Shown here: in pieces, positions 21,414 through 38,745 of the stretch | Position numbering within the stretch: the stretch's first letter is position 1 | Layout of the letters: every line of letters begins with the position of its first letter | Assembly (NCBI RefSeq): GCF_003590945.1 | Contig: NZ_QYUK01000011.1 | Span: forward strand, 338,001-402,000 | Origin: Oleomonas cavernae | GTDB taxonomy: Bacteria > Pseudomonadota > Alphaproteobacteria > Zavarziniales > Zavarziniaceae | Direction of reading: 5' to 3' | Length of the DNA stretch: 64,000 nucleotides | The notes under the pieces: model-generated | Seen by the model: only the letters and a program-made list of their open reading frames with translations | Database searches by the model: none | Told to the model about the DNA's origin: nothing | Program-made: the position numbers and the translations under genes

Positions 21414-22190
21414 TTACCTCTCGACGAAGGCCCGTTCGAACACATAGTCGCCGGGAACGCCCAACTGGGGCGACATCTTGAAACCCCGGGCGTCCAGCAG
21501 GGCCTGAAGATCCTTCAGCATGGCCGGGCTGCCGCAGATCATGACGCGGTCGGTCGCCGGGTCGAGCGGCGGCAGGCCGACATCGGCGAAGACCCGCCCC
21601 GATTCGAGAACCTCGGTGATGCGGCCCTGGTTGTCATAGGGTTCGCGCGTCACCAGCGGGTAGTAGATCAGCTTGCCCCGCACCATCTCGCCGAAGATCT
21701 CGTCACCGGGCAGTTCGTGGCGAAAGAAATCACGATAGGCGAGCTCGCTCGTGTAGCGCACGCCGTGCATGAGCACGATCTTCTCGAAGCGCTCGTACAT
21801 CGCCGGGTCCTTGGCCAGCGACAGGAAGGGGGCGAGGCCCGTGCCGGTCCCCATCAGGTAGAGGTGCCGGCCCGGGCGCAGGTCGTCGAGCAGCAGGGTG
21901 CCGGTCGGCTTGCGGCTGACCAGGATTTCCTGGCCGGGCTCGAGGTGCTGAAGCCGCGAGGTCAGCTTGCCGTCCTGGACCTTGATGCTGAGGAATTCCA
22001 GGTGTTCTTCGTGATTGGCGCTGGCGACGCTGTAGGCGCGCAGCAGCGGGCGGCCGTCGACGGGCAGGCCGATCATGATGAACTGGCCGTTCTCGAAGCG
22101 AAGGCCGGCGCTGCGCGTGGTGCGGAAGCTGAATAGGGTCTCGTTCCAGTGGTGCACGTCGAGGACGCGTTCGGTGCCGATGGTCGACAT
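21414..22190 (-). CDS. fpr: Ferredoxin-NADP reductase (Fpr type)
   Basis: FAD/NADP oxidoreductase of 258 residues of the bacterial subclass I Fpr family. RAYSVAS at 51-57 binds FAD, GTGTGLAPF at 114-122 binds the NADP pyrophosphate, CGSPAMLKDL is the adenosine side, and the protein ends DYVFERAFVER, close to the usual Fpr tail. It moves electrons between NADPH and ferredoxin or flavodoxin. In this operon it could serve the flavin monooxygenase, or the ferredoxin domain of the CYP51 fusion nearby; it could also serve nitrogenase. Start ATG 22190 has GGGA upstream. Confidence 0.88.
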   Translation of the reverse strand: MSTIGTERVLDVHHWNETLFSFRTTRSAGLRFENGQFIMIGLPVDGRPLLRAYSVASANHEEHLEFLSIKVQDGKLTSRLQHLEPGQEILVSRKPTGTLLLDDLRPGRHLYLMGTGTGLAPFLSLAKDPAMYERFEKIVLMHGVRYTSELAYRDFFRHELPGDEIFGEMVRGKLIYYPLVTREPYDNQGRITEVLESGRVFADVGLPPLDPATDRVMICGSPAMLKDLQALLDARGFKMSPQLGVPGDYVFERAFVER

Positions 22191-22204: not shown

Positions 22205-22987
22205 TCAGAGGCCGAAGCCGCCGGAGACGTTGATCTGCTGGCCGGTGATATAGGCGGCCTGGTCCGAGGCCAGGAACACGGCGGCATGGCCGATCTCCTC
22301 GGGCCGGCCGAAGCGCTTCACCGACAGCATCTTCAGCGTCTCCTTGATCCAGTGCTCGTTGAACACGCCGCGTTCCTTCAGCTCCAGGAACATGCCCGCC
22401 TCGATGACGCCGATCAGGACCGAATTGGCGCGGATGCCGTTGACGCCCTCCTCGCGGGCGATGCCCTTGACCAACGCCTCGTTCGCCGCCTTGGGCGCAA
22501 CCGAGAGGCCATCCTTGCGGGGCCACCGCACATGCCCGGCCGAGCCCAGATGGACGAAGGAGCCGCCACCCTTTTCCCGCATATGCGGCACGGCGGCCGA
22601 GACGGTGTTGAAGAAGCCGAAGGTCTCGGTCTCGATCGATCGGCGCCACAGGTCCGGGCTCACATCGGCGATGGGCAACTGCTCCACCACCGGGCCGGCG
22701 GCGAAGACCACGGTGTGGATCCGGCCATGGTCGGCGACGGCAGCGGCCACCATGGCCCGCACATTGGCCGCATCGGTGAGATCGGTCGAATGGGTGCTGG
22801 CTTTGAGGCCCAGGTCGCGGCATTCGCCGGCCAGCGCCTCCGCCACGTCGGCCTTGCGGCGATAGGTGACGGCGATGTCGCTGCCCGCGAGCGCGAAACA
22901 CTTCGCGACCGCGCGGCCGATGCCGCCGCTGCCGCCCACCACCAGGGTGGCGCCGGCCGGGAACTGCCGGGTTGCCTGGTCGGCCAT
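22205..22987 (-). CDS. Short-chain dehydrogenase/reductase, atypical active site
   Basis: SDR of 260 residues. The cofactor motif is VVGGSGGIGRAVAKCF near residue 16, with YRRK after the second strand suggesting NADPH preference. The C-terminus ITGQQINVSGGFGL is classical. The YxxxK catalytic motif is altered: the segment reads GLSVAPKAANEAL, so the Lys is kept but the Tyr position holds Ser. The enzyme may therefore be inactive as a standard SDR or use a variant mechanism. Its ATG overlaps the TetR stop (TGATG), implying coupled translation. A 3-ketosteroid reductase role is conceivable from context but unproven. Confidence 0.8.
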   Translation of the reverse strand: MADQATRQFPAGATLVVGGSGGIGRAVAKCFALAGSDIAVTYRRKADVAEALAGECRDLGLKASTHSTDLTDAANVRAMVAAAVADHGRIHTVVFAAGPVVEQLPIADVSPDLWRRSIETETFGFFNTVSAAVPHMREKGGGSFVHLGSAGHVRWPRKDGLSVAPKAANEALVKGIAREEGVNGIRANSVLIGVIEAGMFLELKERGVFNEHWIKETLKMLSVKRFGRPEEIGHAAVFLASDQAAYITGQQINVSGGFGL

Positions 22988-23754
22988 CAGGCGGCCTCGT
23001 CGAGCTGTTCGATCTGCGCGAGAACGGCCGGCTTGAGGCCGGCGCCATCCTCGGTCAGCAGGTCGAGGGCGACGGCCGGCCGACAAAAGAAGCGCACGAA
23101 ATCGGTCTGCACCCGCTCGATCACGGCGTCGTGCGCTTCGTGCATGCCGTCGGCCACCCAGTTGGCGAGCCTTGTCTGCTGCAGGGCCAGCACCATGCGC
23201 GCCTGGTCGGGGCCCTTGCCGCCGACCATGTGACCTGCCGCGATGCCCCAGGCCAGCACCTGCTCGATCGCGGCGATGCCGCGTTCCCAGATCTGCTGCT
23301 CGTCGCTCGTGGGCTGGGCGGCGGCGTGATACCAGGCATAGCCTTCCTGCAGGATCAGGCGCAGGTAATCGGTGTGTCCCAGCAGGAACTGCATATGGGC
23401 GCGCTGCACCCACAGCATCTGCACCATGGACTGCGGCCGCTCCAGCGAGGCCTGCACCTTCTGCAGCACCGCCTCCAGCATCTCGTTGTCCCGCGCGATC
23501 AGGATGGCCCGGTGCAGTTCCCGTTTGCCCGGATAGAACTGGTAGAGCGTGGCGAGCGAGATGCCCGCTTCCCGTGCCACGTCCTGCATCCGCGCACTGG
23601 CGAAGCCGCCGTCGGCAAAGACCCGCTCGGCCGCGTCCAGGATGTGCTCGCGCGACAGGGCGTCCTTGGCGGCGCGCAGCGCCTGCGCCGCCTGGGCACG
23701 GCGGCGGCCCGCCTCGCTTTCCGCCGGTTCGGCGGTCTTTGGTTCAACGCTCAT
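22987..23754 (-). CDS. TetR-family transcriptional regulator
   Basis: Regulator of 255 residues with a basic, Ala-rich N-terminal extension. The helix-turn-helix covers about residues 36-80 with ILDAAERVFADGGFASARMQDVAREAG and ISLATLYQFYPGKREL. ATG 23754 is preferred over a TTG further upstream, though the GGAAG before it is close. It is divergent from the GMC oxidoreductase operon and overlaps the SDR gene by one base. Two palindromes in the divergent gap are candidate binding sites, so it probably controls both the minus-strand operon and the plus-strand alcohol/sterol operon. Confidence 0.85.
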   Translation of the reverse strand: MSVEPKTAEPAESEAGRRRAQAAQALRAAKDALSREHILDAAERVFADGGFASARMQDVAREAGISLATLYQFYPGKRELHRAILIARDNEMLEAVLQKVQASLERPQSMVQMLWVQRAHMQFLLGHTDYLRLILQEGYAWYHAAAQPTSDEQQIWERGIAAIEQVLAWGIAAGHMVGGKGPDQARMVLALQQTRLANWVADGMHEAHDAVIERVQTDFVRFFCRPAVALDLLTEDGAGLKPAVLAQIEQLDEAA

Positions 23755-23806
23755 GTCTTCCGTCGGGCCATTCGTGCAGATCGGGTGCAGGCCATCATTG
23801 ACAAAC

Positions 23807-23817
23807 AGAACTGTTCT
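23807..23817. promoter_or_regulatory. Palindrome AGAAC-T-GTTCT, candidate operator
   Basis: Perfect 5-1-5 palindrome in the divergent gap between the TetR gene and the GMC oxidoreductase gene. Confidence 0.35.
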
Positions 23818-23827
23818 TTCCAAGATA

Positions 23828-23903: not shown

Positions 23904-25499
23904 ATGCAGGGCGAGGCCTATGATTTCGTTGTCGTCGGGGGCGGATCGGCGGGCTGCATCGTGGCGGCGCGGCTGGCGGCGGGCGCGCGCGTGCTGCTGC
24001 TGGAAGCCGGCGACGCGGCAACCGCGCACCCGGAGACTCAGTCCGCCGACGGCTTCAAGGATGCCTTCAGCAAGGACGCGCTGATGTGGCACCGGATGTC
24101 GGCCCCGCAGGCTGATTGCGGCGGCCGCTCGCTCTATGTCGGTACCGGCCGGGTGATGGGGGGCAGTGGTTCGGTCAACGGCATGGTCTATACCAGGGGC
24201 GACCGCCGCGACTTCGAAAACTGGCCCGCGGGCTGGCGGTGGCAGGATATCGGCCCCGCCTTCGCCGCCGTGGAGGCGCGCCTGGGGGTGAGGCCGCGCC
24301 CGGCGACGCCCTTTGCCCTGGCCTTCATCGATGCGGCGGTCGAGGCCGGCCTGGCCCGCAAGGACGGCCTGAACGACGGCGATCTGGGCGGTGTCGTCGG
24401 CGCCAACGACATGAACTACGAGGGCGACACCCGCCGTTCCTCCTATCGCGCCTTCCTGCACCGGCGGGACCTGCCGGGCCTGACCGTGCGCACCGGCGCC
24501 GCCGTCCGCCGCATCCTGTTCGACGGGTCGAAGGCGGCGGTCGCGGTGGAATTCGCGGCCGATGGCGCGGTCCACCAGGCGCGCGTCGGCCGGGAACTGG
24601 TTTTGTGCGCGGGGGCGCTGGAAACGCCCCGCCTGTTGATGTTGTCCGGCGTCGGCCCGGTGGGCGACCTGGAACGGGTCGGCATCCGCCCGGTGCAGGA
24701 TGCGCCGGGGGTGGGCCGCCACCTGCAGGATCACCCCAATGTCTGCATGTTCTACCGTGCCCGGGCGCCGATCGATTTCCAGTATCCGCAGGTCTACGGC
24801 TTCGACGCCGCCCGCCGCCCGGCCGATGCGCCCAAGGGGCAGGCGCCCGATACCTGCTTTGTCTGCTATGCAGCACCCGCCTCGCTGAAACAGTCGATGG
24901 CGCGCATGGTGCCGATCCTGGCGCTGCCCGGCCGGCTCTATCGCCTCGCCTTCCTGCGCAAGCTGCTGCGCGGGCTGATCGACCTGGCCTTCCTGCTGCC
25001 GCCCTTGCGCCGGTTCGTGGCCCAAGTCTTCGGCATCGTCGTCATCCTGGGCAAGCCGACCTCGCGCGGGCGCATCACGCTCGCCTCTTCGAGCCCGGAC
25101 GTGCCGGCGAAGATCGACCTTGGTTACTACGCGACGCCGCAGGATCGCGAGACGATGCGCGCCGGCATCGCCAAGGCGCGCGACATCGCCGCCCGCGCCA
25201 CCTTGCGTGCCGCCGGCGCCACGCCGCTGTCGGCCGGCGCCAAGCCGGTTTCGGACAAGGCGCTGTGGAAATGGCTGACCGCGGCGACCATGACCACCTT
25301 CCACTTCTGCGGCAGTTGCCGCATGGGCGACGACGCCGACAGCCCGGTCGACACCAGGCTGCGGGTCAAGGGCCTGCGCAACGTGCGCGTGGCCGATGCC
25401 TCCGTCATCCCGGAAATCCCGGTTTCCGCCCTGAACGCGCCGGCCATGATGATCGGCTGGCGCGCGGCGGACTTCATCCTGCAAGGAGACGCGGCATGA
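23904..25499 (+). CDS. GMC-family FAD oxidoreductase
   Basis: Choline dehydrogenase-like GMC flavoprotein of 531 residues that would oxidise a primary or secondary alcohol. VVVGGGSAGCIVAARL at residues 9-24 is the FAD-binding Rossmann motif, GTGRVMGGSGSVNGMVYTRG is GMC signature 1, and GALETPRLLMLSGVGP is signature 2. The active-site region is FHFCGSCRMG followed by ALNAPAMMIGWRAADFI. ATG 23904 has AGGGG upstream; the open frame from 23832 is less likely. Its stop overlaps the aldehyde dehydrogenase start (ATGA), so the two probably act in sequence on one alcohol. Sterol or long-chain alcohol substrates are both plausible. Confidence 0.88.
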   Translation: MQGEAYDFVVVGGGSAGCIVAARLAAGARVLLLEAGDAATAHPETQSADGFKDAFSKDALMWHRMSAPQADCGGRSLYVGTGRVMGGSGSVNGMVYTRGDRRDFENWPAGWRWQDIGPAFAAVEARLGVRPRPATPFALAFIDAAVEAGLARKDGLNDGDLGGVVGANDMNYEGDTRRSSYRAFLHRRDLPGLTVRTGAAVRRILFDGSKAAVAVEFAADGAVHQARVGRELVLCAGALETPRLLMLSGVGPVGDLERVGIRPVQDAPGVGRHLQDHPNVCMFYRARAPIDFQYPQVYGFDAARRPADAPKGQAPDTCFVCYAAPASLKQSMARMVPILALPGRLYRLAFLRKLLRGLIDLAFLLPPLRRFVAQVFGIVVILGKPTSRGRITLASSSPDVPAKIDLGYYATPQDRETMRAGIAKARDIAARATLRAAGATPLSAGAKPVSDKALWKWLTAATMTTFHFCGSCRMGDDADSPVDTRLRVKGLRNVRVADASVIPEIPVSALNAPAMMIGWRAADFILQGDAA

Positions 25500-27075
25500 G
25501 CCTGCCGAATGTTGCCGCCGCCAATGTGGGACCCCGCTCTTCGCCCGCGGTCATCCACTGTATCAACCCGGCGACCGGCGAATCCCTGGGCGACGTGCTG
25601 GTGGCGACGCCAGACGACGTGAGCGCCGCAGTGGAGCGTGCCCGCCTCGCCCAGAAGGCCTGGGGCAGCAGCAGCTTCGCCCAGCGGCGCCGGGTGCTGG
25701 GCCATCTGCTGGACCTGGTCGTGAGCAGGATGGACGACATCTGCGGGGCGGTGGTCGAGGACAGCGGCAAGACGTTCGAGAATGCCTTGCTGGGCGAGGT
25801 CATGCCCGTGTGCAACAAGATCCGCTGGGTGATGAAGCACGGCGAGCGGCACCTGCGGCCCGAGAAGGTCGGCACCGGCATCCTGCTGCACAAGAAGGGC
25901 CGCATCGAGTACCGGCCGCTGGGCGTCGTCGCCTGCATCGTGCCCTGGAATTATCCCTTCCAGAACATCTTCGGTTCCTTCGTGGCGCCCCTGATGGCGG
26001 GCAATGCGGTGGTGATCAAGGCGTCGGAAGCGGTCGCCTGGTCGACCCGCTTCTTCCAGACCCTCATCGACGAGGCCCTGCGCCGCGAGGGCTTCTCCGC
26101 CGACACGGTGCAGATCATCAACGGCTTCGGCGAGACCGGGGCCGCCCTGGTGCGCGCCCGGGTGCAGAAGATCCTGTTCATCGGCTCGGTCGGCAACGGC
26201 CGCCGTATCATCGAAGGCAGCGCGGAACACCTCACCCCCACGGTGATGGAACTGGGCGGCAAGGATCCGATGATCATCTGCGACGATGCGGATCTCGAGC
26301 ATGCGGTTCACTCTGCCTTGGGCGGCTGCTTCATCAACCTGGGGCAAAACTGCATCGCCTCGGAACGGCTGATCGTGATGGAGGGTATTTACGACCGCTT
26401 CGTCGCGGCATTCGGCAAGCGGGCAGGGGCCTTGCGCCAGGGTGTGCCCATCGGCCCCGGCATCCTGGACGTGGGCGCCATCAACACGCGCCAGCAGATG
26501 CGCGTGATCGACGAGTTGGTGACGGATGCGCTGGCCAACGGCGCCCGCGCCCTGGTCGGCGGCCGCCTGCCCGAGGGGCCGGGGCAATTCTATCCGCCCA
26601 CCGTGCTGGTCGATGTGACGCCCGACATGCGTATCGCGCGCGAGGAAGTGTTCGGCCCCGTCGCCCTGATCATGCGGGTGAAGGACGATGCGCAAGCGAT
26701 CGCGCTGGCCAACGGCACGGATTTCGGCCTGCACTCCTCGGTCTTCACCCGCGACAAGGCAAGGGGGAGCGCATTGCCGCGGCACTCGAGGCGGGCGCCA
26801 CCTGCATCAACGATTTCGGCCTGTGCTACCTGAACCAGGACCTGCCCTTCGGCGGGGTGAAATATTCAGGCTTCGGCCGCATGAACGGGCGGGACGGCCT
26901 GCGTGCCTATACCAACGCCAAGGCGGTGCTCAGCGACCGCCTGCCGTTTCCCATCGTGCCGAGACTCTATCCCGTGGGACCGCGCGACTATGCCAAGGCC
27001 CGCCACACCATCCGCCTGATGTTCGGCCGGGGCCTGGGCGCCAAGCTCCGCGCCCTCCTCGGCCTGATGCGCTGA
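25496..27075 (+). CDS. Aldehyde dehydrogenase family protein (frameshift)
   Basis: NAD(P)-dependent aldehyde dehydrogenase. PWNYPFQNIFG at about 150-160 is the cofactor region, MELGGKDP carries the general base E252, and NLGQNCIASERL carries the catalytic C286. The frame changes near 26767 in the G run 26763-26767; with one added G the protein continues through GATCINDFGLCYLNQDLPFGG to about 526 residues. A C-terminal extension after LSDRLPFP, about 50 residues long with basic and hydrophobic character, may associate with the membrane. It is translationally coupled to the GMC oxidoreductase and would convert its aldehyde product to an acid. Confidence 0.83.
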
Positions 27076-27098: not shown

Positions 27099-27773
27099 AT
27101 GGACACCGATTTCTTCATCATCTGGGGCGTGACGCTCGCCGTGAACGGCTCGATCATGGCGTTCTTCAACTGGATGTCGAACAACCGCCGCTTCGACAAG
27201 TACCGCATCCGTATCCCCAAGAGCCCGCAGATCCCGCCCTTACGCAAATGGGTCAACGTCAGCCTGAATGGGCTTTTCTCGACCGTGCTGATGATCGGCT
27301 TCTTCTACCTCTTCGGCGACGGGGTGATCTACAAGGGCCTGCCCGGTCCCGCCGGCTTCATCGGTGAGACGCTGGGGGTCCTGCTGCTCTATGATTTCAT
27401 GTACTACTTCCTGCATCGCTTCATGCACTACAAGCCGGTGCTGAAATACGTGCATCGCACCCATCACCTGATCCGCTTCCCGACCGCGCCCGAGAGCATC
27501 TATCTCCACCCGGCCGAGAATTTCGCCGGCCTTGCCCTGCTGCTCCTCGCCATGTGGATCCTGGGGCCGGTTTCGGCCGCTTCCTTCCTGCTCGTGTTCT
27601 TCATCTATTCGGTGATCAACGTGCTGGTGCACACCAATTTCGTGTTCCCGCACCCGGCGTTCCGGCTGTTCAACTTCTGGACCACCAAGCACGACACCCA
27701 TCACTTCCGCATGACCTACAACTACGCCTCGATCTTCCCCTTCTGGGACCAGGCCTTCGGCACCGACAAGTAA
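27099..27773 (+). CDS. Sterol desaturase / fatty acid hydroxylase superfamily protein
   Basis: Di-iron membrane protein of 224 residues. All three histidine boxes are present: HRFMH (106-110), HRTHH (119-123) and HDTHH (198-202). Hydrophobic helices flank them (about 5-25, 55-72, 88-105, 142-178). The superfamily includes sterol C-4 methyl oxidase and sterol C-5 desaturase, both oxygen-dependent. The protein is short for the eukaryotic enzymes, and the specific reaction cannot be read from sequence alone. Position between an aldehyde dehydrogenase and a 3-beta-HSD/decarboxylase-like gene fits C-4 methyl oxidation particularly well, but this is inference. Start ATG 27099 was chosen over the frame open upstream. 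Confidence 0.85.
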   Translation: MDTDFFIIWGVTLAVNGSIMAFFNWMSNNRRFDKYRIRIPKSPQIPPLRKWVNVSLNGLFSTVLMIGFFYLFGDGVIYKGLPGPAGFIGETLGVLLLYDFMYYFLHRFMHYKPVLKYVHRTHHLIRFPTAPESIYLHPAENFAGLALLLLAMWILGPVSAASFLLVFFIYSVINVLVHTNFVFPHPAFRLFNFWTTKHDTHHFRMTYNYASIFPFWDQAFGTDK

Positions 27774-27783: not shown

Positions 27784-28813
27784 ATGACCAAGAAAATTCT
27801 CATCACGGGGGGCAGGGCTTTGTCGGGCGTGCCCTGGTGGACCGCTTCGCCGACCTCGGCGACGAGGTCACCTGCGCCGACGTGAACGACCGGCCGTTCC
27901 GCGGCGATGTCCGCTTCGTGAAGCTGGACATCCGCGATGCGGCCGCAGTTCATGCTGCGCTCGCCGGCATGGACAGCGTCATCCACAATGCCTCGCTGGT
28001 CCACACCAAGCACAACCGGGTCGAGGACGTCTGGGCGGTGAACTTAGGGGGCACGGAGAACATCCTGGCCGCCTGCACCGCCCACAAGATCCCCAAGCTG
28101 GTCTACATCAGCTCGGCCAGCGCGGTCTACGAGGGCGCGGACATCGAACTGGGCGACGAGACGCTGCCCTATTCCAGCATCTCCCAGGCGCCCTATGCCG
28201 ACAGCAAGATCGCGGCCGAGAAGAAGGTCCTGGCCTTCAGCGGCACGGGGCCGACCGTCACCTGCGCGATCCGGCCCCATGTCATCTTCGGCGCCGGCGA
28301 CAACCGCTTCATCCCGGCGATCCTGGACAAGGCCAAGGCCGGCAGGCTCGGCCGGGCCGTGGGCAACCGGGACAAGTTGTCCGACTTCACCTATATCGCC
28401 AACTTGGTCGATGCGGTGGTCGAGGCGGAAGCGGCACTCGAACCCGGCTCGCGCCTGTGTGCCCAAGCCTATTTCATCACCAACGGCGAACCCATGGCCT
28501 TCTTCGACTTCATCGAGAAGGTGATCGTCGAGCTGCGCTATCCGCCGATCAAGGGCAAGGTGCCCTATTGGCTCGCCTATGGCGTGGCCGCGGTGGCGGA
28601 GGCGATCGACACCTTGCGGGGGGCACGCTGAACGCCGAAAACGGCCTGACCCGCTTCTCGGTCCGCTACATGGTTACGCACCATTACTTCAGCATCGAGA
28701 AGGCCAAGCGCGACTTCGGCTGGACGCCCAAGGTCACGCTGGCCGAGGGCATCCGCCTGACCGCGAAGGAACTGGTGGCCCGGCAGCCGTCGATCCTCGG
28801 GCCGGCCAGGTGA
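27784..28813 (+). CDS. 3-beta-hydroxysteroid dehydrogenase-like NAD-dependent epimerase (two frameshifts)
   Basis: Extended SDR related to 3-beta-HSD/NSDHL proteins, the family of sterol C-4 decarboxylases. It has ITGGQGFVGRALVDRF at the N-terminus after frame correction, VIHNASLVHTKHNRVEDVWAVN, and the catalytic YADSK. The sequence breaks at G run 27807-27812 and again at 28618-28623; one G at each restores about 343 residues ending in KRDFGWTPKVTLAEGIRLT, the usual extended-SDR tail. It starts 10 bases after the desaturase gene with AGGGA ahead. It ends 14 bases from the convergent cycloisomerase-like gene. NAD-linked oxidation of a 3-hydroxysteroid is likely; decarboxylase activity is inferred. 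Confidence 0.8.
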
Positions 28814-29619: not shown

Positions 29620-30255
29620 TCAGCGTCCCGTCAGCGCGATGCGGGCGATCGCGATCGTGTTGCGCAGCTTCTGCAGGCGCGAGGGTTCGGGGTGCAGGCG
29701 GCGATGGCCGGGCAGCAGCCTGCCCTTGGCCTGCTGATGGATCTTCTCCTTCACCACCGGGCTCAGCACGCCGGCGCCGGCAAGCTGGAAGAAGCAATCC
29801 TTGGCATTTCCTAAGTCGAAGAAGTCGCGCTGCCACTGCCATTGCCAGTTGCCGCCGTATTCGAACCAGGAACCGCCGATGCCCGCGATCTCGTAATAGC
29901 TGCCGTCAGGCCGCTGGTAGGGCGCCCGCTGCTTCCAGAAGCCGACGACCGTGCCGCGCTTCTCGTCGATGATGATGTCGTGGTAGGGGTATTCCCACGC
30001 CTCGAACCCCTTCATCTGATAGCCGATGGCGACATCGCGGATCTCGGCGCGGCCGCTCGCCACGAATTCCTCGTTCGGCCCGATGTTCCAGGAATAGACC
30101 GCGTTCTCGGTATAGAACTGGGCCAGGCCGGTCCAGTCGCCCGCCTTCTCGCAGTCGATATTGCCCTGCAGCCAGCGTTCGACCATTTCCTCAAGCTCGG
30201 CCCGCGGCCAGGACCGGTTCGGCGGTGTGATCGACACCACGCGCTTGTCGCCCAT
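29620..30255 (-). CDS. NTF2/SnoaL-like protein
   Basis: Protein of 211 residues with an NTF2-like cone fold predicted for residues 15-140: helix ELEEMVERWLQGNIDCEKAGDWTGLAQFYTENAVYSWN, then strands with GRAEIRDVAIGY and GTVVGFWKQRAP. The superfamily contains ketosteroid isomerases, scytalone dehydratase and many binding proteins, and the sequence does not decide among them. A basic C-terminal tail of about 60 residues is unusual. Between a 3-beta-HSD-like reductase and the CPI homologue, a sterol isomerase or sterol-binding role is attractive but speculative. ATG 30255 has GGGGAG 7 bases ahead. Confidence 0.75.
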   Translation of the reverse strand: MGDKRVVSITPPNRSWPRAELEEMVERWLQGNIDCEKAGDWTGLAQFYTENAVYSWNIGPNEEFVASGRAEIRDVAIGYQMKGFEAWEYPYHDIIIDEKRGTVVGFWKQRAPYQRPDGSYYEIAGIGGSWFEYGGNWQWQWQRDFFDLGNAKDCFFQLAGAGVLSPVVKEKIHQQAKGRLLPGHRRLHPEPSRLQKLRNTIAIARIALTGR

Positions 30256-30280: not shown

Positions 30281-31300
30281 TCAAGCCAGGCGGCCCGCGA
30301 ATTTCTTGTCCAGATGGCCGGCCCTGACCAGCCAGCGTATCGTATCGCCGAAGGTCTCCTCGCCGCTGCGGAAGTGCATCCCCGTGCGCTTCAGGATGCG
30401 GTCCGAACTGGCGACCGCCCATTCGGTCACGTAACCCATGGCCTCGCGCGAGACCTGGGTGTCGAACGGCACCACCTTGCGGACCAGGTCGGTCACGCTG
30501 CCCATGGCGCGCAGCACCGATCCCGGCATGCGGGGACCGGCGATGCGGCGGCCGGTCAATTGTTGCAGCAGGCGGTGGAAGTCCGCCCAGGGATAGTAAT
30601 TGCCGCCCACGATGTAGCGGCTGGCCTCGAAATCATTGGCGGCCGGATGTTCCAGCAAATGAACATGGGCCAGCGCCAGGTCGCGCACGTCGATGCCCTG
30701 AAGCCCGGTGGAGGTGCGCGGCACCACCCGGACGAAGGAGGCGACGCCATGGTTCGCCTCGCTCAGCTTGGGGTCGTCCGGGCCGAAGATGCCGGCCGGA
30801 TAGGTCATCTGGATCGGCATGCCGGCCGCCTGCATCCCGCGCACATGGGCGTCGCAATCGCGCTTCGATCGGGCATAGGCCTGCACCGGGTTGCCCAGCG
30901 GGGTCGCCTCGTCGATCCGCGAGACACCGGGCTGGAACAGCACCGAGAGGCTGGAGACATAGACGATGCGCCCTACCCCTAAGCGGCAGGCGGTACCCAG
31001 CACGGATTCGATGCCGGCGACGTTGTTGCGATAGATCTCGGCCCCGCGCTTGGGGTCGACGCTGACCAGGGCGGCGGCATGAAACACCGCGTCGCATCCC
31101 GTCATGTTCGCCTCGACCAGGGGCTGGTCGCGCATGTCGCCGATCACCAGATCATCCACCCGGTGACCTGCTCTGGCGAAATAGGCGCGCACCTCCGCGG
31201 CCGAACGAACCAGCAGGCGCACCTCGTGGCCGGCCTCTATCAGGGCCCTTGCCGTATGGGCGCCGACGAAGCCGGTCGCGCCGGTGACGAAGACTTTCAT
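30281..31300 (-). CDS. NAD-dependent epimerase/reductase of the 3-beta-HSD / dihydroflavonol reductase group
   Basis: Extended SDR of 339 residues. KVFVTGATGFVGAHTARAL at the N-terminus is the cofactor-binding motif and YARSK is the catalytic YxxxK. VFHAAALVSVDPKRGAEIY and IVYVSSLSVLF are typical of the family. Its ATG overlaps the stop of the CYP51-ferredoxin gene (ATGA), so the two are translationally coupled. It is a second candidate sterol 3-dehydrogenase or C-4 decarboxylase in the block, distinct from the protein at 27784. The reaction cannot be fixed from sequence. Confidence 0.85.
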   Translation of the reverse strand: MKVFVTGATGFVGAHTARALIEAGHEVRLLVRSAAEVRAYFARAGHRVDDLVIGDMRDQPLVEANMTGCDAVFHAAALVSVDPKRGAEIYRNNVAGIESVLGTACRLGVGRIVYVSSLSVLFQPGVSRIDEATPLGNPVQAYARSKRDCDAHVRGMQAAGMPIQMTYPAGIFGPDDPKLSEANHGVASFVRVVPRTSTGLQGIDVRDLALAHVHLLEHPAANDFEASRYIVGGNYYPWADFHRLLQQLTGRRIAGPRMPGSVLRAMGSVTDLVRKVVPFDTQVSREAMGYVTEWAVASSDRILKRTGMHFRSGEETFGDTIRWLVRAGHLDKKFAGRLA

Positions 31301-32961
31301 GGTCCGTGGCGCACGATGCGCAGGGCCGCATTGGGGCAGTGCAGTGCGGCGAGTTGCACCTTCTCCAGTTCCGCCTCGCTGACCTCTTCCTTCAGCAGTT
31401 TCAGGATGCCGTCGTCGCCGACCTGGAAATGCGCGGGCGACTCCCCCGTGCACACCGCATGGCCCTGGCAGAGCTGGCGGTCGACCATCACGGTGATGGC
31501 CGGCATTTGTACCGCCGCCGGCTGGTGCGCCGGGGCCGGGCAGCCCGAGGCCTTGGCCGGTGCCCCCGATGCGCCGTAATCGCTGGCGATGCCGGCGGGA
31601 TCGCGCCGGCGATAGCGCACCCGACACGGTTCCTTCGGCTGCACGATCATGTCGGCATAGTTGTCGACATAGGTCTCCGGGGCATCGACCAGTTCGAACT
31701 CGTAGCGGCGCAGCAGCACGGCGAAGATCGCCTTGATCTGGAACAGGGCGAAGGCATTGCCCGAGCATTTGTGCTTGCCCCCGCCGAAGGGCTGGTAGGC
31801 CATCAGGTTCTTGTCCTCGCGCCGCTCGGGCGCAAAGCGGTCGGGATCGAAGGCATAGGGGTTCGAGAACAGGTGCGACAGGCGGTGGGTCACCGGCGGG
31901 CAGGCCCAGACCATCTCGCCCGCCTTGATCGTGTAATTCTTGAAGCGCAGGTCTTCCGCGACCTTGCGCATCAGGATGATCAGGGGCGGATGCAGGCGCA
32001 GCACCTCCTTCACCACATTCTCCAGCATGGGCATGTCGCGCATGCTGTGGAAGCTGACCTCACCCTTGCGGCCCAGCAGGCCGTCCAGCTCGTCCCGCGT
32101 GCGTTTCAGGATATGGGGATGCTTGAGCAGTTCCAGCAGCACCCAGGCGGCGGTGCCGGAACTGGTGTGATGGCCGGCGAAGATCGCACCGACCAGCAGG
32201 CCGGTGATCTCGTTCTCGTCGAGCTTGGTGCCGTCGTCATAGCGCATGTCGATCAGGGTCTGGAACATGTCACTGGGCTTTTCGGCCTGGTTCGCCCGCT
32301 TGCGCACGATGGCGCCGACCAGTTCCTGCAACCGCTTGCGTGCCCTGTCGCGCTTGCGGAACTTGGGGATCGGCAGATGGGGGAAGTGGTAGGCGAGGGG
32401 GTGTACGCCCTGTTCCAGGTCGTGATAGATGCTGGCGAACTCCTCGCTCAGCTCATAGCGGAACTCGCGGCCCAGCAGGCAGTGGCTGGCGGTATTGATG
32501 GTGAGCTGCTTCATGAACGCGACGAGGCCGATCTCGCCTGAATCGCCCCAGTCGGCGATGATGTGTTCGACCTCGCCCACGATCTTGTGGGAATGGTCGC
32601 GCATCGCCTCGACGCGCAGCGAGGGCATCAGCATGCGCAACTGTTCGTTCTTGCGCGCGATGGGCGCATCGAACACCAGGCCCTGGCCGAAGATCGGCGT
32701 CATCAGCTTGTAGGCAGCCGACTGGTCCAACTGCTCGTCGGAGGAGCGGTAGAAGAGTTCGCTGGCCTCGTCCCCGGTCAGCAGGACGATTCTTTGGCCC
32801 AGCAGCTTGAACGAGGTGATCTCGCCGCCTTGCCGGGCCACCTTCTCGACGAATTTGAAGGGGTTGCTGGCGAAAGACAGCATGTGGCCGAACCAGGGAA
32901 ACCCTCCCTTTGCCGCCGGCGGCGCCGCGCCGCCGCCCTGCACCGATGCCTGGATGCTCAT
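31297..32961 (-). CDS. cyp51: CYP51-like sterol 14-alpha-demethylase fused to a ferredoxin
   Basis: Protein of 554 residues joining a P450 (about 1-450) to a C-terminal ferredoxin (about 487-552) through an Ala/Pro-rich linker. The I-helix reads FAGHHTSS (261-268), the hallmark AGHHTSS of CYP51 in place of the usual AGxDTT. The heme-binding loop is FGGGKHKCSG with C399, and the K-helix ExxR is at EVLRLH. The ferredoxin has CQGHAVC (C498, C504) and a later CP at 542, the CxxHxxC-CP pattern of [3Fe-4S] ferredoxins. The same architecture is known for Methylococcus capsulatus CYP51. It should remove the 14-alpha methyl of a sterol using oxygen. ATG 32961 is preceded by GGGG. Confidence 0.9.
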   Translation of the reverse strand: MSIQASVQGGGAAPPAAKGGFPWFGHMLSFASNPFKFVEKVARQGGEITSFKLLGQRIVLLTGDEASELFYRSSDEQLDQSAAYKLMTPIFGQGLVFDAPIARKNEQLRMLMPSLRVEAMRDHSHKIVGEVEHIIADWGDSGEIGLVAFMKQLTINTASHCLLGREFRYELSEEFASIYHDLEQGVHPLAYHFPHLPIPKFRKRDRARKRLQELVGAIVRKRANQAEKPSDMFQTLIDMRYDDGTKLDENEITGLLVGAIFAGHHTSSGTAAWVLLELLKHPHILKRTRDELDGLLGRKGEVSFHSMRDMPMLENVVKEVLRLHPPLIILMRKVAEDLRFKNYTIKAGEMVWACPPVTHRLSHLFSNPYAFDPDRFAPERREDKNLMAYQPFGGGKHKCSGNAFALFQIKAIFAVLLRRYEFELVDAPETYVDNYADMIVQPKEPCRVRYRRRDPAGIASDYGASGAPAKASGCPAPAHQPAAVQMPAITVMVDRQLCQGHAVCTGESPAHFQVGDDGILKLLKEEVSEAELEKVQLAALHCPNAALRIVRHGP

Positions 32962-33017
32962 GCCGCCCCATATTCTTCCGCACGGGCAGTGTTCTCCCTG
33001 TCCTGCCAGCGAACATA

Positions 33018-33038
33018 TACATATTAACGTAAAGTGTA
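33018..33038. promoter_or_regulatory. TACA-N13-TGTA palindrome before CYP51
   Basis: An AT-rich stretch in the gap between the EBP-like gene and CYP51 contains TACA, 13 bases, TGTA. The identical arrangement occurs at 33943-33963 before the EBP-like gene. Such shared dyads suggest a common regulator of the sterol genes. Confidence 0.4.
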
Positions 33039-33082
33039 AAGTTGTAAATTGAGCGGCGACCCGGCGCGGGACAAGGTTGCAA

Positions 33083-33895
33083 CTAGGCCGATCGCAGCGC
33101 TTTCCGGCGGACGGGAGGTTCCGCGCGGCCGGCGGACTCCCGCATGGCTGCCTCGTAACCCTCGACGCGGTACAGGTGCGCCAATTCGTCGATCGCCGCC
33201 GGAATGGCAATGAACGGCGCAACGATCCAGGGCACGTTGAGGCCGACGAATTTCAGCCAGAAGCCCACGGCGCCCTGCTGAATGTTGACCCAGCCCACAT
33301 GCCATTCGGCGACAAAGAACACGCCCGTCATATAGGTCAGGCCGATGCCGATGATCAGCGCCATCCAGCAGGCGGCAATCCTGTTCTTGAAAGTCTTGCC
33401 GAATTTATACAGGTACCAGGCCAGCAGCTCGAAAGGCCCTGAGAACCCGGCCATGAATTCAAGGCCGGCGATGGTGGGGCTCGAGGTGAGATAACGCGTG
33501 TCGGCGCCGCCATAGACCCACCAGGCCCAGAGATACCTGTCCTCGACACCGATGTCGTGGACGACTCCGGTCAGGTCCAGGAAGAACCAGGGGAGTTCCC
33601 AGAAGGTCTGGGCAATGCCGGAGACGAGCAGCCAGACAAAGCCGAACTCGGACCATTTCTCGAGACGCGTGCGCTTCTCCCCCGAACCATCCACCAGCGC
33701 GATGAACGGCACGAACAGGATGGCGAGGATCACCCACGAGGAATAGACGTCGATCGGGGTTCCCGGGATGACGCCTAGCGCCACCAGCGCATAGGCGCCG
33801 CCGGCAAACATCAGCGTCAGCAGCAGCGACAGCCGGTAGATCCATTTCCTGGCGCCGCTGGCGCCCCGCCCCAAATTCGGATGCAGGTCACGCAT
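33083..33895 (-). CDS. EBP/EXPERA-family protein, candidate sterol delta8-delta7 isomerase
   Basis: Polytopic membrane protein of 270 residues similar to emopamil-binding protein (EBP). Equivalent blocks, recalled rather than searched, are FWELPWFFLDL with E100, WWVYGGADTRY (EBP has KEYAKGDSRY), LEFMAGFSGPFELL with E146 (EBP ETITACLWGPLSLW), and FFVAEWHVGW with E197 (EBP YFLTEHRDGF). The order and spacing of the acidic residues match the catalytic set of EBP. EBP shifts the sterol double bond from C-8 to C-7. ATG 33895 is preferred to a TTG at 33919 because GGGGGG lies 5 bases before it. It is the first gene of the minus-strand sterol operon. Confidence 0.75.
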   Translation of the reverse strand: MRDLHPNLGRGASGARKWIYRLSLLLTLMFAGGAYALVALGVIPGTPIDVYSSWVILAILFVPFIALVDGSGEKRTRLEKWSEFGFVWLLVSGIAQTFWELPWFFLDLTGVVHDIGVEDRYLWAWWVYGGADTRYLTSSPTIAGLEFMAGFSGPFELLAWYLYKFGKTFKNRIAACWMALIIGIGLTYMTGVFFVAEWHVGWVNIQQGAVGFWLKFVGLNVPWIVAPFIAIPAAIDELAHLYRVEGYEAAMRESAGRAEPPVRRKALRSA

Positions 33896-33942
33896 TGAGG
33901 CCCCCCGTTGATTGGCCAAGCGCGAACTGAAATATACAAATA

Positions 33943-33997: not shown

Positions 33998-34288
33998 TCA
34001 ACCGAACTTGAACAGGACGCCGTAGCCGCCGCGGGGATAGTTCCATTCGATCTCGCCGCCGTCGGCGGTGAGCACCCGGCAGGTGCCGCATTCCATGCAG
34101 CCGTCGGGCACGACCTCGACCTGGCCGCGATCGTTGGTGGAATAGCAGCCGGCAGGGCAGACATGGGTCAGCGCCACCAGTGCCGCCGAGGGCGTCTCGT
34201 GCGGGCGCACCTTGATGTGGGGCCGCCCGGCATCGACCAGGTAGCGGTTGACGTAGAGCTTTTCCTCGACCTTCACCACCGCCGTCAT
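33998..34288 (-). CDS. fixX: Ferredoxin-like protein FixX
   Basis: Small Fe-S protein of 96 residues, last member of the FixABCX electron-bifurcating complex that delivers low-potential electrons to nitrogenase. It carries HVCPAGCYS (C44, C48) and GCMECGTCR (C64, C67, C70), the FixX cysteine arrangement for a [4Fe-4S] cluster, and ends [15 protein letters not shown], a conserved tail. Its ATG overlaps the fixC stop by 4 bases, indicating coupled synthesis. Confidence 0.95.
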
Positions 34289-35591
34289 CGCCAGGCCCTC
34301 GCCAGTTTGAAAGCATCGCCGATAAGGCCGAGCAGGCCCCGGTTCTTGCGGAAGGAGGTGACGATCTGGCGCTCCTTCTCACGTTTTGCCACGCCGTCGA
34401 CCCGGAACCAGCGTTGTGCCGCTTCGTTGATCAGGCGCGGATAGGTGCCGAAGACATTGGCCGCATTGCCGTGAAGGAAATTGGGGATGTCCTTGTATTT
34501 CTTCAGGTCCTTCATGACGAAGGAGTCGTCGAGCGTCTTGCGGTAGAGTGCCAGATCCGCCTTCGAGAAGTCCGAACGGATCTGGCGCAGGCGGATGATG
34601 GTCTCGGCCGCGACCCGCCCCGTGGTCATGGCCAGGTTGGAACCTTCCCGGTGTACCGCGTTCACGAAGTGGCCGGCGTCGCCGACGATCAGCCAGCCGT
34701 CGCCGTGGATCTCCGGGATGTGGCGATAGCCGCCCTCGGGATCAGATGGGCGGCATATTCTTTCACTTCCGATCCTTCCAGCAGCGGCTTCACGCTGGGA
34801 TGGTTCTTGAAGGCTTCGAGCAGGGCATAGGGCGTCGTCTGGTTCTGCGCGAAATCCGAAACCATACAGCCGATGCCGACCGACAGGGATTCCTTGTTGG
34901 TGTAGATGAAGGCGGTGCCGGTCATGCCGTTGGTAACCGTGCCCATCACCTCGATCACGACGCCTTCGTCGCCTTTGAGGTTGAAGCGCTGCTCGATCAC
35001 CTCCTGTGGCAGGAAGTGCATCTCCTTGACCGCCAGGGCCACCGCTTCGGGCTTCAACTCGGGGCGGAGGCCGGCCCGGTTGCCGACGAGGCCGTTCACG
35101 CCCTCCGCCAGCACGACGACGTCGGCATGGATGATGGCGCCGCCCCGGTCGGTGCGCACGCCGATGACCTTGCCCCTGATATCGCGGACGAGGTCGGTCA
35201 CCGTCGTCTCGCACAGCACCGTCGCGCCGGCCTCGCGCACCCGGCGATTGAACCATTTGTCGAACTGGGCGCGGATGATCGTGTAGCGGTTGGGCTTCTC
35301 TTCGTTGAAGTCTTCCGAACGGTAGTGCATACCGACATAGGAAGTATCGTCCAGCATCCACAGTCGCTGTTCGATGACGTGGCGCTCGAGGGGCGCGTCC
35401 TCGCGGAAATCGGGGATCACCTTCTCCAGCGCGTCGGCATAGAGGATGGCACCCTGGACGTTCTTGGAGCCCGGGTATTCACCGCGTTCCAGTTGCAGTA
35501 CCTTCAGCCCCGCCTTGGCCATGGTATAGGCGGCGGCGTTGCCTGACGGGCCGGCACCGACCACGATGGCGTCGAAGCGTTCCTCGCTCAT
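34285..35591 (-). CDS. fixC: FixC, ETF-quinone oxidoreductase-like flavoprotein (frameshift)
   Basis: FAD protein of the FixABCX complex, about 435 residues after frame correction. [19 protein letters not shown] near residue 8 is the dinucleotide motif, and [12 protein letters not shown] is the second FAD contact. The frame breaks at 34738-34740, where [19 protein letters not shown] should read through; one missing C/G base accounts for it. An intact gene is expected, because the rest of the operon is in order. It lies 13 bases after fixB and overlaps fixX. Confidence 0.92.
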
Positions 35592-35604
35592 GCTTGGGCC
35601 TCCT

Positions 35605-36702
35605 TCAACTGGCGAGACGGTGGACGGACAGGCGCTGACGGAATGCGGCGGTCAGCGCCGGCAGCAGTTCGACGGCGTTGGCGACGATCCCGATCTGGGC
35701 GAAATCGAAGATCGGCGCCTTCGGGTCCGTATTGATGGCAACGATCAGGTCCGCGCCCTCGACCCCCACCCGGTGCTGGATCGCGCCGGAGATGCCGGCC
35801 GCGATATAGAGCTTGGGGCGAATGGTCTTGCCGGTCTGGCCGATCTGGCGGTCGGCGGTGATCCACCCTTTCTGCACCAGCGGGCGCGAGCCGCCGTAGT
35901 CGGCACCGAGCACGCCGGCCAGATCCTTCACCAGTTGGAAATTCTCGGCCGACTTGAGGCCGAGGCCGCCGGCGACCACGACGTCGGCATAGGCGAGCTG
36001 GGCCTTGTCGGTATCGCGGTCGGGAATGAACTGCAGCACCTTGGTGATGATGTCGAGTTCGGTCATGTCGAGGCCGTGGTCGACGATCCGGCCCGACCGC
36101 CCCGGTACCGCCGGCGGCATGGCCATCACGCGCGGGCGAATGGTCGCCATCTGCGGCCGGAAATTCAGCGTGTGGATGGTGCACAGCAGGGAGCCGCCAA
36201 AGGTCGGCCGCGTCGCGGCCAGCGAGCGTTCGTCATCGATCGCAAGCTCGGTGCAGTCGGCGGTGAGGCCGGTCAGCAACGTGGTGGCGACGGAACCCGC
36301 AAGATCCCGGCCGAGCGTGGTTGCGCCCAACAGCACGATCTCGGGCTTGTAGGTGTTGACAAGATCGGTCAGGGCCTTGGTATAGGGCTCGTTCCGGTAG
36401 TGCGCCAGCACGGGGTCGGCAACGCGGTAGACCAGGTCGGCACCGTGCTCGAAACAGGCCCGCGCGGCTTCGCCCAGCTCGTCGACGTCGCCCCCGATCA
36501 GCACGCCGGCGAGTTCCACTTGCAGCTTGTCGGCCAGTTTCCGGCCTTCGCCCAGCAGTTCCAGGGAAACCGGGTGGATGTGACCGTGCTCGTATTCGAT
36601 GAAGACCCAGACGTGCTTGTAGGACTTGAAGCGGTCGGGCAACTCCTTCTTCATGCCGGCGCGACCGGCGGCCGGGGCCTGTTGGCGGGGGGCGTCGCTC
36701 AT
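35605..36702 (-). CDS. fixB: FixB, electron transfer flavoprotein alpha-type subunit
   Basis: ETF-alpha family protein of 365 residues. The N-terminal domain starts after a short Ala/Pro extension at [22 protein letters not shown]. The C-terminal FAD-binding domain contains [56 protein letters not shown] and [18 protein letters not shown], all typical of ETF-alpha. Fix-type members work with FixA in flavin-based electron bifurcation for nitrogen fixation. It follows fixA by 13 bases. Confidence 0.95.
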
Positions 36703-36715
36703 CCTTCCATCCTCC

Positions 36716-37570
36716 TCAGAAGCCGGCCGACAGGCGCCGAAGATCGGCGTCCAGCGCGGGGTTGCGATCGAGGATCGCGGCGATCAGGGCATCGGCCATC
36801 TGGGCGCCGTTCCTGCCGTCGGTCTCGATCAGTACCGCCTTTTCCGTCCGCGCGCTGGGGGCGAAGACTTTCTTCACCACCGTGGGCGAGCCGCGCAGGC
36901 CGCATTTCAGGAGCTCGGTAATCCCGGCATCGGCCGCGTTCCAGGTGGTGACTCCGGCCCGCGCCGCACGCAGCGCGTCCGCAAGCGAGCCGCGGCGGAT
37001 CTCGTTGGTGCCTTCCAGCATGGTGATCAGCACAGGCAGTACGGTCTTCAGCACCTGCACCCCGCCTTCGGCTCGGCGCTCCACCGTGATCTCACGCGTG
37101 TCCGCGTCGATGCCGGCGATGCGCGAGACATAGGTGAGCTGGTTGAGGTCGAGACGCTTGGCGATGCCCGGGCCGACCTGCGCGGTGTCGCCGTCGATCG
37201 TCTGCTTGCCGGTGAAGACGATGTCGACCGGACCGAAAGTCTCGCCGATTTTCGCGATCGCCGACGACAGGGCGAAACTGGTCGCCAGCGTGTCGGAACC
37301 CGCGAAGTAGCGATCGGTCAACAGCACTGCCCGGTCTGCCCCGAACGTCAGCGCCTTCCGCAGCGAATCTTCCGCCATGGGCGGGCCCATGCACAGCACC
37401 GTGACCGTGCCGCCCAGCTTGTCGCGCAGGGTCAGTGCCGCCTCCAGGGCGAAGAGATCATAGGGGTTGATGATGGTCGGCACGCCCTGGCGCATGATCG
37501 TGTTGTGGACGGGATGGACGCGGATCTGTGCGCTGTCGGGCACTTGCTTGATACAAACGACGGTGTGCAT
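36716..37570 (-). CDS. fixA: FixA, electron transfer flavoprotein beta-type subunit
   Basis: ETF-beta family protein of 284 residues starting [20 protein letters not shown], the typical N-terminus. [23 protein letters not shown] is the conserved nucleotide-binding segment. ATG 37570 has AGGAGG upstream, while the longer open frame is not needed. As first gene of fixABCX it sits downstream of a sigma-54 promoter and a NifA site, so it is expressed with the nitrogenase genes. FixA is expected to take electrons from NADH and bifurcate them with FixB. Confidence 0.95.
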
Positions 37571-37612
37571 CCGCTCCTCCTGCTGCCGGCCGACGGCCGC
37601 AAATGATGTTTC

Positions 37613-37627
37613 GCAAGACTCGTGCCA
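37613..37627 (-). promoter_or_regulatory. Sigma-54 promoter of fixABCX
   Basis: Read on the minus strand: TGGCAC-GAGTC-TTGC, a full -24/-12 element with correct 5-base spacing, about 42 bases before the fixA start. Confidence 0.93.
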
Positions 37628-37671
37628 GAGACTGTTCCTCGCCATTTCAGGGGCTTGCAGGCCGACAGCCA

Positions 37672-37687
37672 TGTCGGCTTCGCGACA
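37672..37687. promoter_or_regulatory. NifA upstream activator site for fixABCX
   Basis: TGT-N10-ACA (TGT CGGCTTCGCG ACA), 45 bases upstream of the -24 element. It lies just at the end of nifW, on the same strand order as the other nif sites. Confidence 0.85.
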
Positions 37688-38017: not shown

Positions 38018-38745
38018 GGCAAGTCCTCCTGCGCCGGCTGGCGGTCGCGGGTCTGGTAGTGGGCGAGGCGGGTTTCGAGGAAATCGATGCGGTCGATCAG
38101 AGCGGCGATCGCTTCGCCCACCGGGTCGGGCATCAGGTGATGCTCGAGGTCGATGCGGCCGTCGACGCGGCGGCGCTGATCCGCCGGGCGGACGATGCGG
38201 CCGGGAATGCCGACGACGGTCATGCCCGGCGGCACGTCCTCCATCACCACCGCATTGGCACCGATGCGCGCGCCACGGCCCACGGTGATGGGCGACAGGA
38301 TCTTGGCCCCGGCGCCGATCAGCACGCCGTCCTCGACCGTCGGATGGCGCCGGCCCGGCGACCAGCTCGTGCCGCCCAGGGTGACACCGTGATAGAGCGT
38401 CACGTCGTCGCCGATCACCGCCGTCTCGCCGATGACAACGCCGGCGCCATGGTCGATGAACAGGCGCTGGCCGATGGCCGCACCGGGATGAATGTCGACA
38501 TTGGTCAGGAAGCGGCCGAACCACGACAGCAGCCGGGCGGGAAAGCGCACCCCCGTCCGCCACAGCCGATGGGACAGGCGGTGGATCATGACGGCATGGA
38601 CACCGGGGTAGGTGCAAAGAATTTCGAGGCTGAAGCGGGCGGCCGGGTCTCGTGCCTTCACGCAGGCGACATCCTGCCGCCAGGTGGCGAGGAGGCCGGG
38701 CGCGCGCGGTGGCGCATCGTCGGGGGCGGCGGTGATGTCCACCAT
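38014..38745 (-). CDS. cysE: Serine O-acetyltransferase (CysE/NifP type)
   Basis: Acetyltransferase of 243 residues that makes O-acetylserine, the precursor of cysteine, from serine and acetyl-CoA. The N-terminal helices run to about residue 85; the left-handed beta-helix follows with [25 protein letters not shown] and [13 protein letters not shown], carrying the catalytic histidines. In nif clusters this enzyme (often called NifP) supplies extra cysteine for NifS-driven cluster assembly. Its ATG overlaps the nifV stop (TGATG), and its own stop overlaps the nifW ATG. Confidence 0.93.

Follow-up and report, generated by a model that had tools for sequence, protein, structure and literature searches.

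A cytochrome P450 CYP51-ferredoxin fusion in a gene cassette with a proposed role in the use of exogenous sterols by Zavarzinia-type alphaproteobacteria

Why some bacteria without sterol synthesis have a sterol 14α-demethylase (CYP51) is a puzzle, of which Mycobacterium tuberculosis is the best-known case. In M. tuberculosis, CYP51 (Rv0764c) is encoded separately from its ferredoxin (Fdx, Rv0763c), which has the CXXHXXC(X)nCP motif described for the 3Fe-4S cluster in two mycobacterial ferredoxins that serve P450s (PMC9868604); a working homologue of the bacterial 8,14-sterol reductase (8,14-Bsr) and a known capacity for steroid degradation are also recorded for this organism (PMC13277303). In Methylococcus capsulatus, CYP51 and ferredoxin are fused. 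The ferredoxin of the Methylococcus fusion has been called 3Fe-4S type (PMC9868604) and was modelled instead as [2Fe-2S] elsewhere (PMC9519919), and P450-ferredoxin fusions are described as still dependent on a reductase (PMC9868604). An NTF2 protein of M. capsulatus, 8,14-Bsr, acts on the CYP51 product to yield an 8(14)-sterol, and its homologues occur in alpha- and gammaproteobacteria, where they are frequently co-localized with CYP51 (Lee, Giner, and Welander 2026, PMC13277303). The subject of the present analysis is a CYP51-ferredoxin fusion, CYP51-Fd, and the gene cassette that surrounds it in a 64,000-nucleotide stretch of Oleomonas cavernae DNA (the window; positions 338001–402000 of contig C11 of genome G000, which is 5.64 Mb in size and 96% complete). 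The interpretation that we favor, with a probability of roughly two in three, is that CYP51-Fd would serve as a sterol 14α-demethylase in a catabolic cassette that trims exogenous 4,4,14-trimethyl (perhaps 9,19-cyclopropyl) sterols for steroid degradation.

The start of the CYP51-Fd gene is an in-frame ATG at 32961, which lies inside a longer open reading frame (ORF) spanning 31297–33222 on the reverse strand. The P450 part of the predicted protein carries AGHHTSS at residues 262–268 and FGGGKHKC ending at the heme cysteine, C399. The ferredoxin part contains CQGHAVC at residues 498–504 (C498, H501, and C504) followed by CP at 542–543, which together make up the motif CXXHXXC(X)nCP. Pfam assigned residues 19–445 to p450 (PF00067, 247 bits) and residues 491–549 to Fer4_15 (40 bits) and Fer4_13 (29 bits), each above its cut-off, consistent with a single-cluster ferredoxin. 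The ORF, the coordinates, and all motifs agreed with a preliminary description of this DNA, which had placed a CYP51-ferredoxin fusion with AGHHTSS, heme C399, and CxxHxxC at 31297–32961. The family CYP51 is defined by two signatures, Y....P.FG....[FY] in the B′-helix and AGHHTSS. Both were found in the fusion, the former as YKLMTPIFGQGLVF; the B′-helix signature is described in part in PMC11089504.

A phmmer search of the PDB returned the M. capsulatus CYP51-Fd (6mcw) as the best match (E = 9e-192), in an alignment of residues 13–550 that takes in the linker as well as both domains. Other M. capsulatus chains and the M. tuberculosis CYP51 came after it in the ranking. By blastp, CYP51-Fd and 6mcw were 53.9% identical over 538 columns, and domain order, ferredoxin motif, AGHHTSS, and heme motif are common to the window protein and the M. 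capsulatus fusion (6mcw and 7snm). Judged from sequence, this similarity is no chance match.

A maximum-likelihood tree of 24 rows (two of them partial: L027, represented by its P450 part, and L030, by its second piece) placed the window protein within CYP51. This phylogeny bears directly on the preliminary description, which had proposed an architecture of the M. capsulatus type and had named a position outside CYP51 as the outcome that would contradict it. The window protein, the other Zavarzinia proteins, and those of Nevskiales and Salinisphaerales formed a group of ten rows (support 100/100), inside which the branching was unresolved. This group joined L028, L029, and the Methylococcus rows to give 14 rows (100/97), which, together with the 6mcw match over both domains, supports the proposed architecture. 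Further out, the CYP51 proteins of M. tuberculosis and Nonomuraea were added (17 rows, 100/99). The M. tuberculosis system resembles the present one in its ferredoxin motif, its Bsr homologue, and the lack of sterol synthesis but differs in having unfused proteins on another branch of the tree.

The B′-helix gate residue provides an indication of the substrate. The plant-like CYP51 of Acanthamoeba, which prefers obtusifoliol, has Phe at this position (PMC11089504). The gate is Leu in 11 of the 12 fusion sequences of the group, including that of the window, and Val in L028; G702, G589, and 6mcw have Ile there, and the three rows at 41% identity have Phe. Because the gate is Leu and not the plant-like Phe, 4,4-dimethyl sterols such as lanosterol are predicted to fit, and with Leu86 at the gate CYP51-Fd would be expected to show no marked obtusifoliol preference. 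Y191 of CYP51-Fd aligned with M. capsulatus Y186 (numbered along the PDB chain), a substrate-bonding tyrosine called conserved in bacterial CYP51s (PMC9519919).

The NTF2/SnoaL protein encoded close to CYP51-Fd is probably a bacterial 8,14-sterol reductase, judging by its pocket. In M. capsulatus, the pocket residues of 8,14-Bsr are Y37, Y43, Y78, Y80, D133, and D136, some of which could be mutated without loss of activity (PMC13277303). All six are present in the window protein at identical spacing, with a constant offset of +11, and do not vary across the nine aligned rows. They are also carried by the homologue in G589, a Methylococcus-type genome in which CYP51 is separated from 6mcw by only a very short branch; over 197 aa, this homologue and the window protein share 56% identity. 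SnoaL_2 matched the window protein at 32 bits. Among 15 genomes searched with a model of the Bsr family, nine gave a match, namely seven of eight cassette genomes (the fragmented G003 being the exception) together with G589 and G702, and none was obtained in G006, G633, G481, G627, or G822. An extra weak match of ∼50 bits was seen in G450 and in G452. Against the PDB, the Bsr protein gave three weak matches, the best of which, 7ue2, spans just 44 positions and is presumably a designed protein.

CYP51-Fd is the first gene of a tightly packed operon in which it is followed by an SDR (short-chain dehydrogenase/reductase) gene, the NTF2 protein gene, and, 3 bp on, a gene for a membrane protein resembling plant cycloeucalenol cycloisomerase (CPI) (Table 1). 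The overlap of the SDR start codon with the CYP51-Fd stop codon suggests translational coupling. Tail-to-tail with this operon lies a second one, encoding a GMC oxidoreductase, an aldehyde dehydrogenase (ALDH), a PF04116 hydroxylase, and a 3β-hydroxysteroid dehydrogenase (3β-HSD)-type SDR, so that the cassette comprises eight genes overall. The order CYP51-Fd, SDR, Bsr, CPI-like was found in 10 of 12 loci (the window, L021, L023, L024, G002, L025, L026, L027, L028, and L030); the remaining two, L022 and L029, end too early to show downstream genes. Among nine genomes with at least 10 kb of flank, the GMC/ALDH/PF04116/3β-HSD block lies near CYP51-Fd in seven (the window, L021, G002, G004, G005, L025, and L027), and in all seven a TetR-family gene adjoins the GMC gene. 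The two blocks are convergent in the window, L021, and G002 and collinear on the same strand in Stenotrophobium and Stagnimonas, and in G004 and G005 the second block is situated ∼10 kb upstream on the opposite strand. That nearness was kept despite such rearrangement argues for a functional link between the blocks.

Table 1. Positions of the cassette genes and their neighbors within the window
Feature	Position	Strand	Remarks
Fpr, ferredoxin-NADP reductase-like	21414..22190	-	258 aa; FAD_binding_6 and NAD_binding_1
TetR-family regulator	22987..23823	-	kept beside GMC gene
GMC oxidoreductase (PF00732/PF05199), choline-dehydrogenase-like	23904..25499	+	domains from L025 copy
Aldehyde dehydrogenase (PF00171 in L025 copy)	25496..27075	+	ATG overlaps GMC stop; frame change at ~26760
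PF04116 hydroxylase	27099..27773	+	
3β-HSD/C4-decarboxylase-type SDR (PF01073)	27784..28813	+	two frame changes; L021 and L025 copies intact
CPI-like protein, 262 aa	28828..29616	-	many predicted helices; resemblance to plant cycloeucalenol cycloisomerase
NTF2/SnoaL protein, probable 8,14-Bsr	29620..30255	-	Y48, Y54, Y89, Y91, D144, D147
Extended SDR, HpnA/SdmB-like	30281..31300	-	ATG overlaps CYP51-Fd stop (ATGA)
CYP51-ferredoxin fusion, 554 aa	31297..32961	-	P450 domain ~13-454, linker, 3Fe-4S-type ferredoxin ~490-550
EXPERA/emopamil-binding-like membrane protein	33083..33919	-	24.3 bits, cut-off 25.7; 121 bp upstream of CYP51-Fd
fixABCX operon	33998-37672		directly upstream of sterol cassette

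Whole-genome searches were carried out in 10 of the 11 cassette genomes, i.e. all but that of L028: the six genomes of the set here called Zavarzinia, the window's own included, and G450–G453. One of the ten, G003, holds CYP51-Fd and part of the SDR gene before its contig ends. The oxidosqualene/squalene-hopene cyclase domain PF13243 was found in none of the ten cassette genomes. By contrast, it was present in all five other CYP51-bearing gammaproteobacterial genomes tested, in three of them within a few kb of CYP51. PF13249 was likewise found in none of the six Zavarzinia genomes, and a 2025 survey lists Zavarzinia among the genera of its order without shc (PMC12583986); synthesis of hopanoids or sterols by the host was rejected on these grounds. 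A squalene epoxidase signal (PF08491, 20.3–20.6 bits against a cut-off of 20.1) was obtained in two of the six Zavarzinia genomes and was dismissed as weak and non-specific, the same model also matching Escherichia coli and Caulobacter.

The 3-ketosteroid 9α-hydroxylase KshA (PF19298) scored above cut-off in all 10 cassette genomes (280 bits in the window's own genome) and in none of 14 controls, one of which matched below cut-off. KstD-like proteins (NF005882) were found in all ten at 408–609 bits, which is below the curated cut-off, with 534 bits in the window's own genome and 28.7 bits in G006, a genome of the same family without the cassette. The KstD-like and KshA genes of the window's genome, at 3128217 and 3143264, are less than 16 kb apart. 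Taken together, the cassette, the probable 8,14-Bsr, the steroid-degradation genes, and the lack of cyclase domains suggest that foreign sterols are used, and not that sterols are made as in Methylococcus. The Methylococcus-type genome G589 differs from the cassette genomes in having cyclases and in the distance between its Bsr gene (C1:1140760) and CYP51 (1693608), which are clustered here, and no CPI-like gene was found in it. The published 8,14-Bsr system likewise brings CYP51, ferredoxin, and NTF2 reductase together, but Zavarzinia is not named in the text, and the abstract, Results, and Discussion describe no CPI-like or PF04116 gene with the pair (PMC13277303).

A route can be proposed from the genes, their order, homology, residues, and co-occurrence, in which the individual reactions, the substrate, the order of steps, and the reductase are assigned conditionally. 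The host, which presumably makes no sterols or hopanoids, would take up sterols of precursor type originating in plants, algae, or fungi, and where substrates are derived from cycloartenol, the CPI-like protein would open the 9,19-cyclopropane ring. CYP51-Fd would then remove the 14α-methyl group in three oxidations, with electrons passing through the tethered 3Fe-4S ferredoxin from an external reductase, to give a Δ8,14 diene that 8,14-Bsr would reduce and isomerize to the 8(14)-ene. The C-4 methyl groups may be oxidized by the PF04116 oxygenase together with the GMC and aldehyde dehydrogenases and lost by decarboxylation through the 3β-HSD-type SDR, with the second SDR handling the ketone; the GMC enzyme and ALDH could equally act on the sterol side chain instead. 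The product would enter KstD/KshA ring cleavage and ordinary steroid degradation. From lanosterol-fed Mycobacterium, a C19 steroid whose double bond is at 8(14) has been reported (cited in PMC13277303), which fits the proposed pathway. This catabolic answer is directly testable since the cassette is compact, enzymes for neighboring steps are candidates within it, steroid-degradation genes are present, and strains exist (Zavarzinia marina, Z. aquatilis, and Stenotrophobium rhamnosiphilum).

The same enzymes might instead remodel exogenous sterols into membrane or signaling lipids without catabolism. Methanotrophs do make 8(14)-sterols with 8,14-Bsr and CYP51 (PMC13277303), and a genome without cyclase domains would need to scavenge its sterols in this case as well. 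We nevertheless regard remodeling as unlikely, given KshA and strong KstD-like genes in the ten cassette genomes searched. GMC and aldehyde dehydrogenases are, moreover, more typical of oxidative breakdown. Ranked next, and also improbable, is degradation of another polycyclic substrate, such as plant triterpenoids or steroidal saponin cores, to which the CYP51 chemistry would be incidental; the GMC, ALDH, and PF04116 proteins are generic, and sequence cannot reveal the substrate, but CYP51-Fd is 54% identical to a lanosterol demethylase along almost its entire length, has Y191 where M. capsulatus has Y186, and has in Bsr a partner for which the only reaction reported is on the CYP51 product (PMC13277303), all of which speaks for a sterol. 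De novo sterol biosynthesis as in Methylococcus is very improbable, since the CYP51-Fd and 8,14-Bsr shared with Methylococcus-type genomes are offset by the cyclase contrast (0 of 10 against 5 of 5), the weak epoxidase signal, and the absence of shc from Zavarzinia in the 2025 survey (PMC12583986).

Several observations weigh against the catabolic interpretation. In none of the 11 genomes did the KstD model reach its curated cut-off (788 bits), and it gave sub-cut-off matches in all 14 controls, and KshA and KstD lie ∼2.8 Mb from the cassette. The KshA/KstD contrast is one-sided, in that it sets the cassette genomes against the 14 controls and, for KstD, G006, and not against the five cyclase-bearing genomes, and two of the cassette genomes, G003 and G005, are only ∼75% complete. 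In M. tuberculosis, itself known to degrade steroids, the CYP51 gate residue is the plant-like Phe. The C-4 block is missing within 10 kb of CYP51-Fd in L026 and L030, and the Polyangia metagenome-assembled genome (MAG) G822 has a CYP51-Fd 58% identical to that of the window, yet Bsr, the CPI-like protein, and a cyclase were not found in that genome. For the CPI-like protein, the plant sequence used for comparison was provisional, a PDB profile search gave no matches, fold searches of the PDB and BFVD were uninformative, and the structure model was weak (mean pLDDT 59.6). No activity, binding, or growth data for Zavarzinia proteins were found. Frame shifts in the window also count here. Relative to intact relatives, frame changes occur in ALDH at ∼26760 (a five-G run), in the 3β-HSD gene at ∼27807 and ∼28618 (G runs), and in FixC at ∼34700, and in three of these four cases the site is a run of five or six G; those in the ALDH and 3β-HSD genes are probably read errors because of this position.

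In the putative C-4 half of the cassette, formed by the second block, PF04116 scored 83–87 bits and PF01073 190–192 bits. Eukaryotic C-4 demethylation (ERG25 and ERG26) uses the same two types, ERG25 being a member of PF04116. For the 3β-HSD-type SDR, the best NCBIfam model was OleD (254 bits, cut-off 580), and the SDR that follows CYP51-Fd scored 92–110 bits against the SdmB model, far below its cut-off of 600. In the described bacterial system, C-4 demethylation is carried out by SdmA/SdmB(/SdmC) (PMC10202945). The cassette resembles that system in the SdmB-like SDR after CYP51-Fd but differs in that no Rieske SdmA gene was found among its eight genes, which include the PF04116 oxygenase and the 3β-HSD-type SDR instead. 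The Zavarzinia marina locus (L021) has an extra HpnA/SdmB-like SDR within the cassette (14281–15264, reverse strand; HpnA 222 bits, SdmB 136 bits), and three cyclase-bearing genomes have genes ∼30% identical to this SDR in the neighborhood of their CYP51.

Neither Pfam nor NCBIfam gave a match to the CPI-like protein at E = 0.01. Its identity to the provisional plant CPI sequence was 35% over the full length (32–35% across nine rows), and the corresponding profile scored 157 bits against at most 7.7 bits for 500 shuffled sequences. The protein can be regarded as a lead, a candidate cyclopropylsterol isomerase that, if functional, would be a bacterial one; none was evident in the open-literature listings searched. 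A model of it matched two of 398 Pseudomonadota, both of the own genus, and seven of 15 chosen genomes, all of which bear the cassette, with no match in the five cyclase-bearing genomes or in 72,556 plasmids. A bolder proposal, which we hold only tentatively and consider doubtful as a whole, is that a horizontally shared cassette turns a plant-type route to food, the CPI-like protein, CYP51-Fd, Bsr, and a C-4 pair other than SdmAB together mineralizing sterol precursors in hosts without synthesis of their own. If true, this would suggest why mycobacteria keep CYP51.

In a search of 60 relatives at 1e-30, the own genome included, CYP51-Fd matched 11, six of the own genus at 79–100% identity and five others at 25–28%. 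The named matches at 79% were Zavarzinia marina, Z. aquatilis, and two Zavarzinia MAGs. At 1e-60, only two of 398 Pseudomonadota genomes matched, both of the own genus, and in 369 gammaproteobacterial-class genomes there were seven matches, one of which (G470) was merely 29% identical. The nearest relatives beyond the genus, from a scan with two short patterns that puts distant CYP51s such as that of Methylococcus beyond reach, were in Stenotrophobium, Stagnimonas, Oceanococcus, and uncultured Salinisphaerales (71–78% over the best segment), followed by a gammaproteobacterial MAG (61%) and the Polyangia MAG (58%; L029), in which the contig stops directly 3′ of CYP51-Fd. Horizontal transfer between Zavarzinia and Nevskiales/Salinisphaerales is likely because the best-segment identity of 71–78% across classes compares with 79% within the genus; no direction is claimed, since the tree leaves the ten-row group unresolved. 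No relatives were confirmed in viral contigs, and CYP51 on plasmids was at most 42% identical among the 20 of 65 records listed. One plasmid locus, L078 on pNL2 of Novosphingobium aromaticivorans, encodes a 31% identical P450, outside the CYP51 tree group, beside a 2Fe-2S ferredoxin, SDRs, and an NTF2-family gene, which makes its gene content similar to that of the present locus.

With regard to electron supply, the Fpr gene to which the preliminary description had pointed at 21414 is real, though as a gene of 258 codons within a 544-aa ORF (21414–23048) whose first 286 codons precede the Fpr start. Fpr adjoins the cassette TetR gene in the window, G002, and G004. It was not found in the 40-kb stretch of G005, in L021 (where the flank ends near TetR), or in the gammaproteobacterial loci L025, L026, L027, and L030. 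Fpr is put forward as a possible donor. FixABCX was rejected as the donor. The operon was not found near CYP51-Fd in L021 or in the G002, G004, and G005 stretches, and it adjoins a nif cluster at 38745–51744 that includes a NifV-like gene, three nitrogenase component-1-type genes, and NifH, for which reasons it more likely serves nitrogenase.

The EXPERA-like protein encoded upstream of CYP51-Fd is a possible sterol isomerase; no counterpart was found in the four Zavarzinia stretches that were compared with the window. Among 72,556 plasmid records it had one match, an emopamil-binding protein on plasmid p2 of Planktothrix agardhii (39% over 147 aa), which is encoded ∼7 kb from a CYP51-like gene. 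The surrounding region of p2 (L103, 36556–55942) encodes several P450s including the CYP51-like one, Rieske proteins, squalene/phytoene synthase, and squalene-oxidase-repeat and emopamil-binding proteins, and from this gene content looks like a triterpene or sterol cluster.

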